64,000 nucleotides of DNA from the NCBI RefSeq assembly GCF_001078705.1, contig NZ_CDMW01000001.1:439106-503105 (forward strand). Direction: 5' to 3'. Origin of the DNA: Streptococcus sanguinis. Its GTDB lineage: Bacteria > Bacillota > Bacilli > Lactobacillales > Streptococcaceae. Below, in pieces: positions 56,754 through 64,000 of this stretch. How positions within the stretch are numbered: the stretch's first letter is position 1; each line of letters opens with the position of its first letter. The notes below the pieces were generated by a model. The model saw only the letters and a list, made by a program, of their open reading frames with translations. It had not been told where the DNA came from and made no database searches. A program made the translations under genes and the position numbers.

Positions 56754-57838
56754 AACCATCTATTTATAGCTTAACGCGTCAGGAAATGATTGAATGGGCG
56801 GAAGCTCAGGGAGAAAAGAAATTCCGTGCTGCCCAGATTTGGGAGTGGCTCTATCGCAAGCGGGTCCAGTCTTTTGAAGAGATGACCAATCTATCTAAAG
56901 ACTTGATTGCTAAGCTAGACGATCAGTTTGTCGTCAATCCGCTTAAGCAGCGCATTGTTCAGGAGTCAGCTGACGGTACGGTCAAGTACCTCTTTGAGCT
57001 GCCGGATGGTATGCTGATTGAGACGGTGCTCATGCGCCAGCATTATGGACTTTCTGTCTGTGTGACCACCCAAGTAGGTTGTAATATCGGCTGTACCTTC
57101 TGTGCTTCCGGCTTGATTAAAAAGCAACGCGACCTCAATAACGGTGAGATTGTAGCTCAGATTATGCTGGTTCAGAAGTATTTTGATGAGCGTGGTCAGG
57201 ATGAGCGGGTCAGTCACATCGTGGTTATGGGAATCGGCGAGCCGTTTGACAACTATGACAATGTGCTCAAGTTTGTCCGGACGGTCAATGATGACAAAGG
57301 TTTGGCTATCGGTGCCCGCCATATCACGGTTTCGACATCAGGGCTGGCTCATAAGATTCGTGACTTTGCCAATGAAGGTGTGCAGGTCAATCTAGCTGTA
57401 TCCCTTCATGCCCCGAATAATGATCTGCGGACCAGCATCATGCGGATTAACCGGTCCTTCCCTATCGAAAAGCTTTTTGCAGCTATCGAATACTATATTG
57501 AGACGACCAACCGCCGGGTGACCTTTGAGTACATCATGCTCAATGAAGTCAATGACGGGGTAGAGCAAGCCAAGGAACTGGCTGAGCTGCTCAAGAATAT
57601 CAAGAAACTGTCTTATGTCAATCTCATTCCTTATAACCCAGTTAGCGAACACGACCAATACAGCCGCAGTCCCAAAGAGCGCGTGATGGCCTTCTACGAT
57701 ACCCTCAAGAAAAACGGAGTCAACTGCGTAGTTCGTCAGGAACATGGAACGGATATTGACGCAGCCTGCGGCCAGCTGCGTTCCAATACTATGAAGCGTG
57801 ATCGCGAGAAAGCATTGGTAGAAAATGTTCAGCCTTAA
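56750..57838 (+). CDS. rlmN: 23S rRNA (adenine(2503)-C2)-methyltransferase
   Basis: A 362-residue radical-SAM enzyme that methylates A2503 in 23S rRNA (and A37 of some tRNAs). The cluster motif is CNIGCTFC (Cys111, Cys115, Cys118), followed by [10 protein letters not shown] and the C-terminal [15 protein letters not shown] loop whose Cys (about residue 345) is the second catalytic cysteine. It overlaps the YutD gene (ATGA) and the VanZ gene (14 bases). Confidence 0.97.
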
Positions 57839-58364
57839 GAACTATCTGACTTCAGACGGTGAGCTGACTGCTAGGGGACGGAGATTGCTGATAGGAGGAA
57901 GCTGGCTCTATTTCTTGATGCTTTGCATTTTGTGCTTTATTCCTCAAGTTCCAGAGCCGGGAATGGAGACGCCGGGAATCCAGTATTTTGGCCGAATAGT
58001 GGTTTTGTTAATCCCTTTTAATTCCTTTGTTAACATTGGCGAGATTACTTCTTGGATTCAGCTAGTCAAGGTCTTTATCCAAAATTTAGCCAATATCTTT
58101 CTGCTGTCGCCTTTAATCTTTCAATTGCTTTGCCTCTTTCCAACATTGCGGAAGACCAAGAAGATTGTATGGCTGAGCTTTGGGATGAGTCTGTCTATTG
58201 AAGCGACTCAGATTCTGCTGGACCTTCTTATCAACGCCAATCGGGTTTTTGAGATTGATGATCTCTGGACCAATACTTTGGGTGGTTATCTGGCTTGGCG
58301 GGCATTTCAGCTTGGTCAAAAAATCTGGAAAAATCGTCAAGACGACGCTTTCAAAAGAGATTAG
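57825..58364 (+). CDS. VanZ-like family membrane protein
   Basis: A 179-residue protein with four to five helices, and the VanZ family motif [20 protein letters not shown] and [33 protein letters not shown] (here from about residues 125-155). VanZ proteins are linked to glycopeptide/lipopeptide tolerance, with the mechanism unknown. It overlaps rlmN, so the three genes form a single unit. Confidence 0.9.
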
Positions 58365-58407
58365 CGAGAGAAAGGTTCGGATTTAGGAGAAAAAATTAAA
58401 TTTTTTC

Positions 58408-58436
58408 TTGACAAGAAAAAGGGAAAGGCCTATAAT
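58408..58436 (+). promoter_or_regulatory. Consensus promoter of the trp block
   Basis: TTGACA, exactly 17 bases, TATAAT: the best promoter match in the window. It lies directly before the first Trp T-box. Confidence 0.9.
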
Positions 58437-58442
58437 AAAATA

Positions 58443-58700
58443 AATCATCAGAAAAGTAATAATTTTTTCTACTTTCAGGGAGCCTGTGGTTGGTGGAAAC
58501 AGGCAGTAGAAGATTATGAAGTGGGCTGATGGAAAAAATGAATTTGAAGCAATAAAAATTCGGTGAGCACACCTTACAGTGCAGCTTGTTGTTAGACAAG
58601 ACAGAGATATGGAGGCAGTCTATACTTTGCTCCATAATTGAGGTGGTACCGCGATTTTACGCCCTCACACAGAGTTTTTTCTGTGTGTGGGCTTTTGTTT
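58443..58700 (+). promoter_or_regulatory. Tryptophan T-box leader 1
   Basis: A tRNA-sensing leader. Stem I contains a GGGAGCCTGTGGTTGGTGG apical region, and the likely specifier TGG (Trp) is at 58522-58524. The T-box bulge is AATTGAGGTGGTACCGCG (58636-58653). The terminator is GCCCTCACACAGA (58661-58673) with its partner at 58680-58692, then a T-rich tail. Uncharged tRNA-Trp would stabilise the antiterminator and allow transcription of trpB. Confidence 0.9.
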
Positions 58701-58731
58701 TGTTTGAAAATAAAGAAAAGAGGCAATTAAG

Positions 58732-59913
58732 ATGACAGAAACTAAAGGATATTTTGGACAATTCGGTGGCTCCTTTGTACCGGAGCCTATCCAGGCCTTG
58801 CTAGATGAATTGGAAGCGACTTTTGAGAAGTATAAGGATGACCCAGAATTTTTAAATGAATACCGGCATTATTTGGCGGATTATTCAGGCCGGGAAACTC
58901 CGCTCTACTTTGCAGAAAGTCTGACCCAGCACCTGGGCGGAGCTAAGATTTATCTGAAGCGGGAAGATCTCAATCATCTGGGCTCTCATAAGCTCAATAA
59001 TGTTTTGGGGCAGATTCTTCTAGCTAAGCGCATGGGCAAGACCCGGGTCATTGCTGAAACTGGAGCTGGCCAGCATGGTGTGGCAACTGCGGCAGCAGCA
59101 GCTAAGTTTGGTATGAAGTGCGATGTTTACATGGGTGCAGAGGATGTAGAGCGCCAGCGCCTAAATGTTTTCCGTATGGAAATGATGGGAGCGACTGTTC
59201 ACGCTGTGGAAACAGGAACCAAAACCCTCAAGGATGCTGTGGATGCAGCCTTTGGAGCTTGGATGAGTGATTTGGAAGCCTTCTATGTTTTGGGTTCCGC
59301 TGTCGGTCCTCACCCTTATCCGACGATTGTCCATGAGTTCCAAAAGGTGATCAGTGAAGAATCTCGTCGGCAGATTTTGGATAAGGAAGGCCGCTTGCCA
59401 GACTATGTCATTGCCTGTGTAGGTGGCGGCTCCAATGCTATCGGCGCCTTCTCTCAGTATGTGGCAGATAAAGAAGTTAAGCTGGTTGGTGTTGAAGCGG
59501 CTGGGCGGGGCCTTGATACAGACCAGCATGCGGCGACCATGACCAAGGGAAGTGTCGGAGTAGTGGATGGTATGAAGACTTACGCTGTCTTTGCTGAAGA
59601 TGGTCAGGTCGCACCAGTTTACTCCATTTCGGCAGGCTTGGACTATCCTGGAGTTGGTCCTGAACATGCTTTCTTTAAAGATTCTGGTCGAGTAGAATAC
59701 GTGGCAGCGACAGATGATGAAGCTGTGGATGCCTTGCTCCTCTTGACGCAAAAGGAAGGAATTTTGCCAGCAATTGAAAGCTCTCATGCTATTGCTGAAG
59801 CTATCAAGCGAGCTCCGCAATTGTCATCTGACCAAATCATCGTTATCAACGTATCTGGTCGTGGAGACAAGGATGTGGCAGCCATTGCCGACTATCTAGA
59901 AAAACGAAAATAA
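58732..59913 (+). CDS. trpB: Tryptophan synthase beta chain
   Basis: A 393-residue PLP enzyme that joins indole and serine. The cofactor Lys87 lies in [25 protein letters not shown] and the GGGSNAIG phosphate loop are intact. It is full length. It lies first in the block, ahead of trpE, and not in its usual place next to trpA; a second trpB downstream cannot be excluded because the window ends in trpC. GAGG precedes the ATG. T-boxes flank it on both sides. Confidence 0.96.
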
Positions 59914-59934
59914 AATCCCAGCAGAAGAGTAGTA

Positions 59935-60200
59935 ACATCGCTCCTTTCAGAGAGTCTGTGGTTGCTGTAAACAGGCAGGAGAAGTTATGAAATGGGCTGC
60001 TGGAGTCAACATTTTGTCCTTTAGTTGATCTTTTATCATTTTGTTAGCATACTTTGCCATGACTCGGTGTGCTGCCTTCTACTAAAAGGAATCTAAATGA
60101 CTGTAAATAGGTAAATGAGATGTGGAGCCTGAAAACTCCATAACTGAGGTGGCACCGCGATGATACGCCCTCACAGGATGAACTGTGCGGGCGTTTTTCT
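59935..60200 (+). promoter_or_regulatory. Tryptophan T-box leader 2
   Basis: A second complete T-box between trpB and trpE. Stem I region AGTCTGTGGTTGCTG, likely specifier TGG at 59993-59995, T-box bulge AACTGAGGTGGCACCGCG (60142-60159), terminator CGCCCTCACAG / CTGTGCGGGCG with TTTTT (60166-60198). No clear promoter precedes it, so it probably acts as a second checkpoint on readthrough from trpB. Confidence 0.9.
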
Positions 60201-60316
60201 GTAGTTCTGGAGCAAGTTATGACAGTGAACAGGTGCTATCTGTTCTTGTGAAATGCGGTCATGGCTAGCAAATTACTCCTCCTTAAACGCTTCTGATTAA
60301 TATAGAAAGAAACATT

Positions 60317-61675
60317 ATGCAAAAGATTTTACCAGCTGATATTTTATCGCCGATTCTGGCTTATATGCGGATTCAGGGCGACCACAAGGTGATTTTGGAA
60401 AGTATTCCGAGAGATAGCGAGACAGCTCGCTTTTCTATCCTTGCCTATAATCCAGTTTTTGAAGTTCGCTATGAAAATGGCCAGTTAACAAAGAACGGGC
60501 AAGTAATCGAGGCAGATCCAATGGACTATCTGCATGAGTTAGCAGTAAAGAAAGATCATCATTCAGACCTGCCTTTTGGTGGTGGAGCCATCGGATTTGT
60601 CGGCTATGATATGATTTCCCTCTATGAGAAGATTGGCCAGATTCCAGCTGATGTGATTGGGACGCCAGATATGCACTTTTTCGTCTATGAGAGTTACATG
60701 GTTTTTGACCATAAAAAAGATAAGGTCTATATCCTTGAGGAGGCGCTCTACAGTAATAGAAGCGAAGCTGATATGGCTCATAGTCTGGAGCGTATCATGG
60801 CTGAGCTGGCGCAGCCTGCGGCAGATGAATTTTCACCACTGGAACTGTCCAGTTTGAACTTCCAGAGCCATATCGAGCAGGCATCTTTTGAAAAAATGGT
60901 GGAAGAAGCGCGTAGCTTGATTCGGCAGGGAGACATGTTCCAATGTGTTCTCAGTCAACGCTTTTCAGCAGAATATTCTGGTAAACCACTAGATTACTAT
61001 CGCAATCTGCGTGTGACCAATCCTTCCAACTATCTCTATTTTTATGATTTCGGGGATTATCAGATTATCGGAGCCAGCCCGGAAAGTCTGGTGTCTGTCA
61101 AGCAAGGTCAGGTTACGACCAATCCTATTGCTGGGACCAGACCGCGTGGGAAGGATGAGAGAGAGGATAAAGCCTTGGCGAAGGAGCTGTTGGCTGACGA
61201 GAAGGAAGTGGCGGAACACCGTATGTTAGTTGATTTGGGGCGTAATGATATCGGTAAAATTGCCCAGAATAAGAGCGTGGAGATCACGAAGTACATGGAG
61301 GTAGAGTATTTCCGCTATGTCATGCATCTGACCAGTGTAGTCCGTGGTCAGCTTTTGCCTCAACTGACAGCCATGGATGCGCTCAAGTCCACCCTGCCGG
61401 CTGGTACTGTCTCTGGAGCACCTAAGATTCGAGCTATGAAGCGAATTTATGAGCTGGAGCAGGAAAAACGTGGCATTTATGCGGGGGCTATCGGCTATCT
61501 GTCTGCGACTGGAGATATGGATGTTGCCATTGCTATCCGGACCATGATTTTGAAAAATGGCAGAGCTTATGTTCAAGCTGGAGCGGGTATTGTTTATGAC
61601 TCGATCCCTACTAATGAATACCAAGAAACCATCAACAAAGCCAAATCAATGACCAAGATAGGAGAGATGCAATGA
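60317..61675 (+). CDS. trpE: Anthranilate synthase component I
   Basis: A 452-residue chorismate-binding enzyme, first step of tryptophan synthesis. The N-terminal domain with the Trp feedback element (LLES-type; here VILESIPRDSETARFSI, about 24-40) is followed by the catalytic domain (FQCVLSQRFS, ASPESLV, TNPIAGTRPRGKDERED, VDLGRNDIGKIA, LPAGTVSGAPKIRAM). The start lacks a strong ribosome binding site (GAAAG). It overlaps trpG by four bases. Confidence 0.96.
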   Translation: MQKILPADILSPILAYMRIQGDHKVILESIPRDSETARFSILAYNPVFEVRYENGQLTKNGQVIEADPMDYLHELAVKKDHHSDLPFGGGAIGFVGYDMISLYEKIGQIPADVIGTPDMHFFVYESYMVFDHKKDKVYILEEALYSNRSEADMAHSLERIMAELAQPAADEFSPLELSSLNFQSHIEQASFEKMVEEARSLIRQGDMFQCVLSQRFSAEYSGKPLDYYRNLRVTNPSNYLYFYDFGDYQIIGASPESLVSVKQGQVTTNPIAGTRPRGKDEREDKALAKELLADEKEVAEHRMLVDLGRNDIGKIAQNKSVEITKYMEVEYFRYVMHLTSVVRGQLLPQLTAMDALKSTLPAGTVSGAPKIRAMKRIYELEQEKRGIYAGAIGYLSATGDMDVAIAIRTMILKNGRAYVQAGAGIVYDSIPTNEYQETINKAKSMTKIGEMQ

Positions 61676-62235
61676 TTTTATTGATTGATAATTATGATTC
61701 TTTTACTTACAATCTAGCCCAGTATATTGGAAATTTCGCAGAAGTTAAGGTCTTGCGAAATGATGATGCAGGTCTTTATCAAGCGGCAGAAGAAGCTGAT
61801 GCTTTGGTTCTGTCTCCGGGTCCAGGCTGGCCAGCAGATGCAGGACGGATGGAAGAACTTATCCGTGATTTTGCTGGTAAAAAGCCGATTTTAGGGATTT
61901 GCTTGGGGCATCAAGCCATTGCAGAAGTATTTGGAGGAAAGCTAGGATTGGCTCCCAAAGTCATGCACGGCAAGCAAAGTATTCTGCGCTTTGAGGGAAA
62001 CTCTCCTATTTATCAAGGGATAGAGGATGGGCAGCCGGTCATGCGATATCATTCGATTTTGATTGAGGAGATGCCAGAGGACTTTGAAGTGACAGCTCGA
62101 GCGGTTGATGACAACTCAATCATGGCTATCCAGCACAAGAGCCTGCCTATCTATGGTTTTCAGTATCATCCAGAAAGTATTGGCACGCCGGACGGCTTGT
62201 CGTCTATCAAGAACTTCATCGACTTAGTAAAGTAA
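61672..62235 (+). CDS. trpG: Anthranilate synthase component II (glutamine amidotransferase)
   Basis: A 187-residue class I amidotransferase that supplies ammonia to TrpE. Catalytic Cys in [17 protein letters not shown] (about residue 79), His and Glu in [12 protein letters not shown] (about 165-175). It may also serve folate synthesis, as in Bacillus. GGAG before the ATG lies within trpE. Confidence 0.96.
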
Positions 62236-62245
62236 AGGAGGATGT

Positions 62246-63250
62246 ATGAAAGAGATTATTGCAAAACTAGCTGATTTTAAGGATTTAAGCAGCGCTGAGA
62301 TGACAGATGTGATTGAGCGAATTGTCACCGGACGGGTGACAGAGTCTCAAATTGTAGCGTTCTTGCTGGGGCTCAAGATGAAGGGGGAGACGATTGAGGA
62401 ACGAACGGCTTTGGCTCAGGTTATGCGAGGCCATGCTAAGCAGATTCCGACCACTATTCGCACTGCCATGGACAATTGCGGTACGGGCGGGGACAAGTCT
62501 TTTAGCTTCAATGTTTCGACTACCGCAGCTTTTGTACTAGCAGGTGGCGGGATTAAGATGGCCAAGCACGGCAATCGCTCCATTTCTTCTAAGTCAGGCT
62601 CAGCTGATGTGTTAGAAGCTCTGGGAATTAATCTGGACTTAGACGCTGCTAGCTTGGGCAAGGTTTTTGAGCAGACAGGTATCGTCTTTCTCTTCGCAAA
62701 GAATATGCACCCAGCCATGAAATACATCATGCCAGCTCGTCTTAGCCTCGGCATTCCTACTATTATGAATCTAACTGGTCCTCTCATCCATCCCATGACT
62801 CTGGAAACTCAGCTTTTGGGGACCAGCCGACCGGATATGTTAGAGAGTACGGCAGAAGTCTTGAAAAATATGGGACGCAAGCGTGCAGTAGTCGTGTCGG
62901 GTCCAGATGGTCTAGATGAGGCCGGTCTTCATGGCCGTACCCAGTATGCTCTGCTGGAAAATGGGCAAATCAGCCTGCACAGCTTTCTGCCGTCAGATGT
63001 TGATATGGAAGAAATACCTCTTGAAGCGATCCGTGGGGGTAATGCCAAGGAAAATGCAGAAATTCTGCTATCTGTCCTGCAAAATCAAGCCGGCCCCTAT
63101 CTAGAAACGACAGTTTTGAATGCGGGATTGGGCTTCTATGCTAATGGGAAATCAGACAGCATAGAAGAAGGAATAGCTTTGGCCCGCCAAGTGATCGCTA
63201 GTGGCGCAGCTTATGAAAAACTCAAGCAACTACAGGAGTATCAGAAATGA
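62246..63250 (+). CDS. trpD: Anthranilate phosphoribosyltransferase
   Basis: A 334-residue enzyme that attaches the ribose phosphate to anthranilate. PRPP loop [20 protein letters not shown] (about 74-93), [21 protein letters not shown], and the metal-site residues [12 protein letters not shown]. Complete. AAAGGAGG precedes the ATG. Its stop overlaps the trpC start (ATGA). Confidence 0.96.
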
Positions 63251-64000
63251 GCAAAGAATTTCTCCCGACCATTCTAAATCAAAAAGAGCAGGAAGTGGTG
63301 GCTATGTCCTATGAAGAGCTGCAACCTCTGCGCTCGACCTATTCCCTCTATAACTATCTCAAAAGCCATCCTCAAGAGCTGCAGCTGATTGCTGAGGTTA
63401 AAAAAGCCAGCCCCAGTCTGGGAGATATTAATCTCGGTGTGGATATTGTGGAGCAGGCTCGCACCTATGAACGATGCGGTGCAGCTATGATTTCGGTCCT
63501 GACAGATGAAATTTTCTTTAAAGGACATCTGGATTACCTGAGAGAGATTTCCAGTCAAGTGACCATTCCAACCCTCAATAAAGACTTTATCATTGATGAA
63601 AAACAGATTGTTCGCGCCCGCAATGCCGGAGCGACAGTTATTCTTCTGATTGTAGCTGCCTTGCCTGAAAAGCGGCTGCAAGAACTTTATGATTTTGCGA
63701 CGGGTCTAGGCTTGGAAGTTCTGGTCGAAACCCATAATCTGGCGGAGCTGGAAATTGCCCATAGAATAGGAGCTAGGATTATCGGTGTTAATAACCGCAA
63801 TCTAGTCACTTTTGAGACAGATATCAATACAAGTCTCCAGCTGTCTGCCCATTTCAAAGATGGCAGGGTTTACGTATCTGAGTCCGCTATTTTCAGCAAG
63901 AAAGATTCTGAGCTAGTAGCTCCTTATTTCCATGCGGTTTTAGTCGGAACAGCCCTGATGCAGGCTGAAGATGTGGCAAAAAAAATCAAGGAGCTAAAAA
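63247..64000 (+). CDS. trpC: Indole-3-glycerol phosphate synthase, incomplete at window end
   Basis: The frame starts at ATG 63247, overlapping the trpD stop, and is still open at 64000, about 251 codons; only a few residues of the usual 255 are missing. Catalytic residues are seen in [10 protein letters not shown] (Lys), TLNKDFIID (Lys), and [10 protein letters not shown] (Glu); [13 protein letters not shown] and [11 protein letters not shown] complete the TIM barrel. trpF, and possibly trpBA, should follow beyond the edge. Confidence 0.95.

Follow-up and report, generated by a model that had tools for sequence, protein, structure and literature searches.

Two tryptophan T-boxes in series around an extra trpB gene of Streptococcus sanguinis: a likely salvage-first variant of tandem T-box control

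What would a cell gain from placing a gene for the beta chain of tryptophan synthase between two tRNA-sensing leaders? Tandem trp T-boxes were described as tightening control, and here a gene stands between them, near the end of a 64,000-nucleotide stretch of Streptococcus sanguinis DNA (contig NZ_CDMW01000001.1, positions 439,106-503,105; hereafter the window). A first-pass annotation, made from the letters alone, had read this arrangement as a double gate, in which trpB is passed first and the anthranilate genes are reached only when starvation for tryptophan is stronger. Comparison of the locus with its relatives indicates that this form of tandem T-box control is real, that it is conserved and well supported, and that a salvage-first reading of it is likely.

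Architecture and conservation of the locus

The unit consists, in order, of a promoter, T-box 1, the extra gene (here trpBx), T-box 2 and a complete trp operon. Its features in the window are as follows.

58408..58436, + strand: promoter TTGACA-17-TATAAT, 12/12 consensus, the sole strong promoter of the whole unit
58440..58669, + strand: T-box leader 1 (Trp), from a match of 107.9 bits to RF00230 and the stem I fold
58522..58524 and 58644..58647, + strand: specifier UGG and T-box UGGU (TGGT in DNA) of leader 1, from fold and sequence
58661..58692, + strand: terminator hairpin of leader 1 with a T-run after it, from sequence; -22.7 kcal/mol
58732..59913, + strand: trpBx, extra stand-alone-type tryptophan synthase beta chain, 393 aa, from the open reading frame, PDB matches and a tree
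59912..60175, + strand: T-box leader 2 (Trp), beginning at the trpBx stop codon, from a match of 81.7 bits to RF00230 and the stem I fold
59993..59995 and 60150..60153, + strand: specifier UGG and T-box UGGC (TGGC in DNA) of leader 2, from fold and sequence
60166..60193, + strand: terminator hairpin of leader 2 with a T-run after it, from sequence; -18.5 kcal/mol
60317..61675, + strand: trpE, open reading frame, name presumed
61672..62235, + strand: trpG, open reading frame, name presumed
62246..63250, + strand: trpD, open reading frame, name presumed
63247..64000, + strand: trpC, open reading frame still open at the window end; trpF, operon trpB and trpA come next in L016

The names trpE, trpG and trpD are our assumption from the families that the reading frames resemble and from gene order. 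Rfam matches and promoter scans bore out the proposal that one promoter serves two successive Trp T-boxes: leader 1 exceeded the gathering score of 93 for the Rfam T-box family RF00230, and leader 2 fell below it, with an E-value of 1.6e-17 in a 2.6 kb search. In both leaders stem I folded with the usual specifier loop, carrying UGG-G at the loop end before the closing helix, and the 3′ strand of that loop (GAAGUGGG in box 1 and GAAAUGGG in box 2) indicated that UGG is read in both, as had been annotated; no other codon was seen. GTG, GGG and AGT were also considered as specifiers of the window leaders and were ruled out by the stem I folds.

In leader 2, the terminator and a competing antiterminator hairpin both fold, and UGGC pairs with G73 of tRNA-Trp; UGGU of leader 1 stands opposite the same base as a G:U wobble. 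In the window genome, the discriminator base of the tRNA-Trp gene is G. Across the genus, a tRNA-Trp pattern ending in the discriminator G was matched with at most three mismatches in 84 of 118 genomes, the other 34 giving no match, and all matches listed end in G. The annotation had placed a promoter at the first leader only, and the scan of 57800-60500 agreed: the 12/12 site lies there, and no plus-strand promoter site of at least 9/12 was present between 58734 and 60317.

The gene had been described as a trpB lying apart from trpEGDC. It is indeed a separate gene, but an extra copy and not the displaced trpB of the pathway. The annotation had left room for another trpB after trpF past the window, and one was found: the complete operon trpEGDCFBA, which extends beyond the window end, has a trpB of its own, 56% identical to trpBx and 4.7 kb downstream of the trpBx stop. 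In a phage collection, the only matches among those listed were trpB-coding, at 63-65%.

A one-genome-per-species scan yielded 185 TrpBx relatives, and the best 80, together with the window, make up the 81 loci counted here. Box 1 lay ahead of trpBx in all 81, its specifier was TGG in all 81, and a promoter within 80 bases ahead of it matched 12/12 positions in 60 loci and 11/12 in 21. The layout box 1-trpBx-box 2-trpE was found in 58 loci, from sanguinis- and mitis-type records. Box 1 and trpBx stood alone beside rlmN and vanZ in 16 parasanguinis/australis-type loci, and six had box 1-trpBx-trpG, with the other trp genes absent within the flanks examined, the contig of L094 stopping ~1.8 kb past trpBx; in the one remaining locus the contig ended. 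Among the 58 loci with box 2, its specifier folded as TGG in 57, the exception, L064, giving GGG, and the distance from the trpBx stop to the first paired base of box 2 was 0-5 nt throughout (59911-59925 in the window). Moreover, the best scores upstream of box 2 in these loci (5-9, mean 7.4) resemble those of shuffled sequences (mean 7.1), and it therefore seems to lack a separate promoter.

Two further observations concern the surroundings. Many mitis-group records carry ~100-400 inserted bases between a T-box and its gene (L068 and L111 after box 2; L073 and L080 after box 1), presumably repeats of the BOX or RUP type. Two parasanguinis-type genomes have the small RNA gene csRNA1 (RF02379) close to the trp operon (L147:3000-3096, L152:704-800).

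The layout might be a historical accident, in which box 1-trpBx and box 2-trpEGDCFBA became joined, the operon promoter was lost and the resulting order brought no advantage. Parasanguinis/australis-type records have box 1-trpBx by itself, at the rlmN-vanZ site, as do outgroup streptococci; trp operons in other parts of the genus come with their own T-box. Since the two units each occur separately, their joining is the likely origin. The joined order has nevertheless been kept in 58 of the 81 loci, none of which has gained a promoter ahead of box 2; furthermore, an account of origin does not describe use, and function is not excluded by history. We therefore regard an order without any advantage as a possible but clearly less probable explanation than a functional one.

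TrpBx with and without the pathway

In a PDB search, TrpBx was TrpB1-type over its full length (563 bits to 5ey5 and 504 to 4neg), and its matches to entries named beta chain 2, the TrpB2 type, were weak (107-108 bits). A tree of 56 rows split the TrpBx side (38) from the operon TrpBs (18) with support of 99/97, and its deep part is unsure because L179 is long-branched. The TrpBx side also holds the nearest TrpBs of other Lactobacillales, in whose fetched flanks no other trp gene was present. In these bacteria the type of switch seems to have been exchanged and the trpB gene kept. The orphan Rfam trpB motif RF04312 was observed ahead of stand-alone trpB genes closely related to trpBx (L174:1887-1997, L175:1848-1958, L177:1897-2009).

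The genus sample of 118 Streptococcus genomes, which overlaps the best-80 locus set, contained TrpBx in 65 (at least 81% identity, nearly full length). Of these 65 genomes, 54 also have trpA; in the other 11, trpA, operon trpB, trpE and trpD were absent genome-wide. A T-box was still present ahead of trpBx in 10 of the 11, and the leader was gone in G013. There (L122:1500-2070), trpBx lacks both the T-box and its usual start, and the upstream sequence resembles a transposase gene by eye. In L043, L095, L098, L105 and L109, trpG is kept beside trpBx and trpE is gone. A weak 33% match to TrpE was found in the trpE-less G077 and G104 and likewise in the window genome, and we take it to be probably PabB. 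Because G077 and G104 keep trpG together with this weak TrpE-like gene, the trpG beside trpBx may serve folate synthesis.

The median dN/dS of trpBx was 0.036 in the trpA-less outgroup set (14/28 pairs with dS >0 and <3) and 0.030 in the trpBx-trpG set (13/15 pairs within these limits; six sequences equivalent to about four independent ones, as L105/L150, L095/L151 and L098/L192 are the same records), compared with 0.024-0.034 in the prototroph sets. These values point to strong purifying selection on TrpBx also in genomes that lack the pathway. As TrpBx is kept under a switch for tryptophan starvation without a partner that makes indole, the best explanation is that it most likely salvages indole from outside. 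The role in indole rescue that had been proposed for the gene is thus favoured by the 11 of 65 genomes that keep trpBx without trpA, operon trpB, trpE and trpD. Overall, TrpBx is best described as a stand-alone-type TrpB, retained under constraint without trpA and presumably active independently.

TrpB enzymes are promiscuous, and TrpBx could in principle make another product derived from indole or serine, or serve TrpA as an alternative beta subunit. Its TrpB1 character along the whole length, the control of trpBx by a Trp T-box in 81/81 loci (window plus best 80 of 185) and its persistence without trpA in 11 genomes all argue against either role, which we consider very unlikely.

Deleted forms, gate strength and the proposed circuit

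Relatives that have lost part of the unit form a natural experiment, some keeping gate 1 and trpBx, others keeping both gates but only fragments of the gene. Records such as L043 lost box 2 and trpE and kept box 1-trpBx-trpG. In G070 (L125:3112-3153) trpBx runs into trpE with ~30-40 nt between them and no second T-box, indicating that the unit can do without its second gate. The operon is present and trpBx absent in eight mitis-type genomes; they were chosen by an operon TrpB of at least 84% identity over its length, leaving out G090, whose operon TrpB is split in two and which showed one T-box in 7 kb, and G099, with an N-run in trpBx. In all eight, two adjacent T-boxes precede trpE (Rfam scores of 92.9-102.5 bits), and in seven a remnant of the 3′ end of trpBx lies between them, with a score reached by 0/200 shuffles. 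L133 has a long insert between its T-boxes, with the trpBx 3′ remnant adjoining box 2. In L132, no trpBx remnant was detected between the T-boxes, its score being reached by 78/200 shuffles. On sequence comparison, the tandem T-boxes of the sampled trpBx-less mitis-type genomes are thus read as a deletion scar.

Control tandem leaders of other streptococci (L139, L141 and L144) contained no trpBx remnants, though their spacers are short, and their second T-boxes scored only 37-44 bits. For both reasons these tandems seem to have arisen differently. Their second T-box seems to be without a normal stem I, and stem III, antiterminator and terminator are repeated.

The annotation had further suggested that TGGT in the first leader and TGGC in the second, facing G73, would set different thresholds. 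The letters and the discriminator base are as described; the threshold drawn from them did not hold. Box 1 has TGGC in 60 of the 81 loci (window plus best 80 of 185), including all 14 other sanguinis-group loci, and TGGT in 21, the other 20 being mitis-group records, many labelled S. infantis; box 2 has TGGC in 57 of 58. TGGT of the window is thus a local variant, and the TBDB paper (PMC7778990) reports UGGU opposite G73 for 46% of Trp T-boxes. The TGGC majority in box 1 and this figure rule out the two letters as a conserved basis for a threshold. In addition, rough energies, in which the cut at the T-run varies, gave box 1 the stabler terminator hairpin in 47 of 58 loci, and such modelling gives no evidence that box 2 is the stricter of the two. 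Their order in series already makes trpE depend on both gates, even with equal tRNA affinities.

Given a single promoter ahead of two consecutive terminators, trpBx requires one antitermination event and trpE two; the earlier statement that the anthranilate genes lie behind both gates and trpBx behind one follows from this order. We therefore propose, as the reading that we hold to be probable, that a single transcript passes two tRNA-Trp gates, opening indole salvage first and tryptophan synthesis second. The promoter would give one transcript with two T-box terminators. Uncharged tRNA-Trp would let polymerase pass box 1, so that trpBx is made, and TrpBx would most likely condense scavenged indole with serine. 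At a distance of 0-5 nt behind the trpBx stop, box 2 would terminate transcription again unless uncharged tRNA-Trp were bound there too, and its passage would lead to expression of trpEGDCFBA. The output of trpE would then approximate the product of the two passage probabilities, P1 x P2, and never rise above that of trpBx. Where indole is present, TrpBx would recharge the tRNA pool and box 2 would remain shut. Switching in vivo, the use of indole as substrate and this order of induction are what we infer from the sequences.

In an extension of this circuit, the ribosome ending trpBx would cover the 5′ strand of box 2 stem I and help to hold the gate shut; strong starvation would slow translation of trpBx and free box 2, which would thereby sense both tRNA charging and trpBx translation. 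We regard this addition as highly speculative and improbable. In the same speculative vein, tandem T-boxes elsewhere may also be scars of lost salvage genes.

Published expression data bear on the circuit in part. In pneumococcus grown in rich medium, transcription covered both T-boxes and the intervening repeat but not trpE and the operon, according to the accessible part of the report (PMC3049150), a pattern consistent with leaky passage of box 1 and a closed box 2. In S. sanguinis SK36, trpF is SSA_0636, as given in the portion available of PMC5817204, and counting tags back from it we infer that trpBx is SSA_0631. RNA-seq values excerpted from PMC6904348 were 60.92 FPKM for SSA_0631 vs 43.18 for SSA_0637 and 37.89 for SSA_0638, and in the ccpA mutant 367.74 vs 200.86 and 135.65. 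The 1.4-2.7 fold excess of trpBx has the direction that gating would give, but it is modest and could reflect mRNA decay. No data on the response of these leaders across tryptophan or indole levels were found in the literature.

The same values, as excerpted from PMC6904348, would also suit T-boxes that act as one redundant lock, alike in response, with box 2 tightening the shut-off and trpBx supplying an extra beta subunit along with the operon: trpBx and the operon genes rise together, and the differences are modest. Retention of the T-box pair in 8/8 mitis-type genomes that lost trpBx points the same way. The series order, however, exposes trpBx to one gate only unless a second promoter exists, and purifying selection acts on trpBx also where trpA, trpE, trpD and operon trpB are absent from the genome. 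On balance, a redundant lock seems unlikely to us, and we favour gates that open in sequence.

If so, the gene between the gates would turn a tandem leader into an ordered circuit, with cheap indole rescue followed by costly synthesis under one promoter and one signal. Such a circuit suggests how oral streptococci might use the indole of their neighbours. The deleted forms, moreover, suggest a specific way in which the pneumococcal double T-box could have arisen, and they raise the question of why two gates are kept.

Comparison with known systems

In the part of the literature covered, we found neither a pair of T-boxes with trpB between them nor a deletion-scar origin described. For S. tigurinus, PMC4978470 implies that an additional copy of trpB is present, without mention of T-boxes in the available text. 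Tandem T-boxes on trp operons of Bacillota are known, and a 2025 survey, in its accessible portion, counts pairs within one intergenic region (PMC12452182). These leaders share with the present locus two complete Trp T-boxes with terminators before trpEGDCFBA and the need for two uncharged tRNAs; they differ in that both T-boxes lie in one intergenic region, whereas here trpBx (58732-59913) lies between them. Because trpBx separates its T-boxes, the split pair falls outside the definition of that survey as far as its available text shows.

Two further systems are also close. The trpXYZ leader of S. suis is likewise a streptococcal Trp T-box with a UGG specifier, and in reporter assays it was induced by low tryptophan and abolished by mutation of the specifier or the T-box; in contrast to the present locus, it is a single T-box on a transporter operon (PMC9382623, available text). 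The trpB motif RF04312 (PMC11109978, available text) also represents RNA control of a stand-alone trpB and precedes the trpBx relatives in L174, L175 and L177, but it is another, orphan RNA motif, and neither a second gate nor a trp operon was present in the flanks retrieved.

Another close system is the pneumococcal trp leader, which belongs to the same genus, has two T-boxes and the same promoter position, and is cotranscribed in rich medium; it differs in having a BOX repeat and no intact gene between its T-boxes, according to the part of PMC3049150 available. By analogy with L133, which has the same kind of layout together with a trpBx remnant, the pneumococcal leader can be read as a deleted form of the unit in the window.
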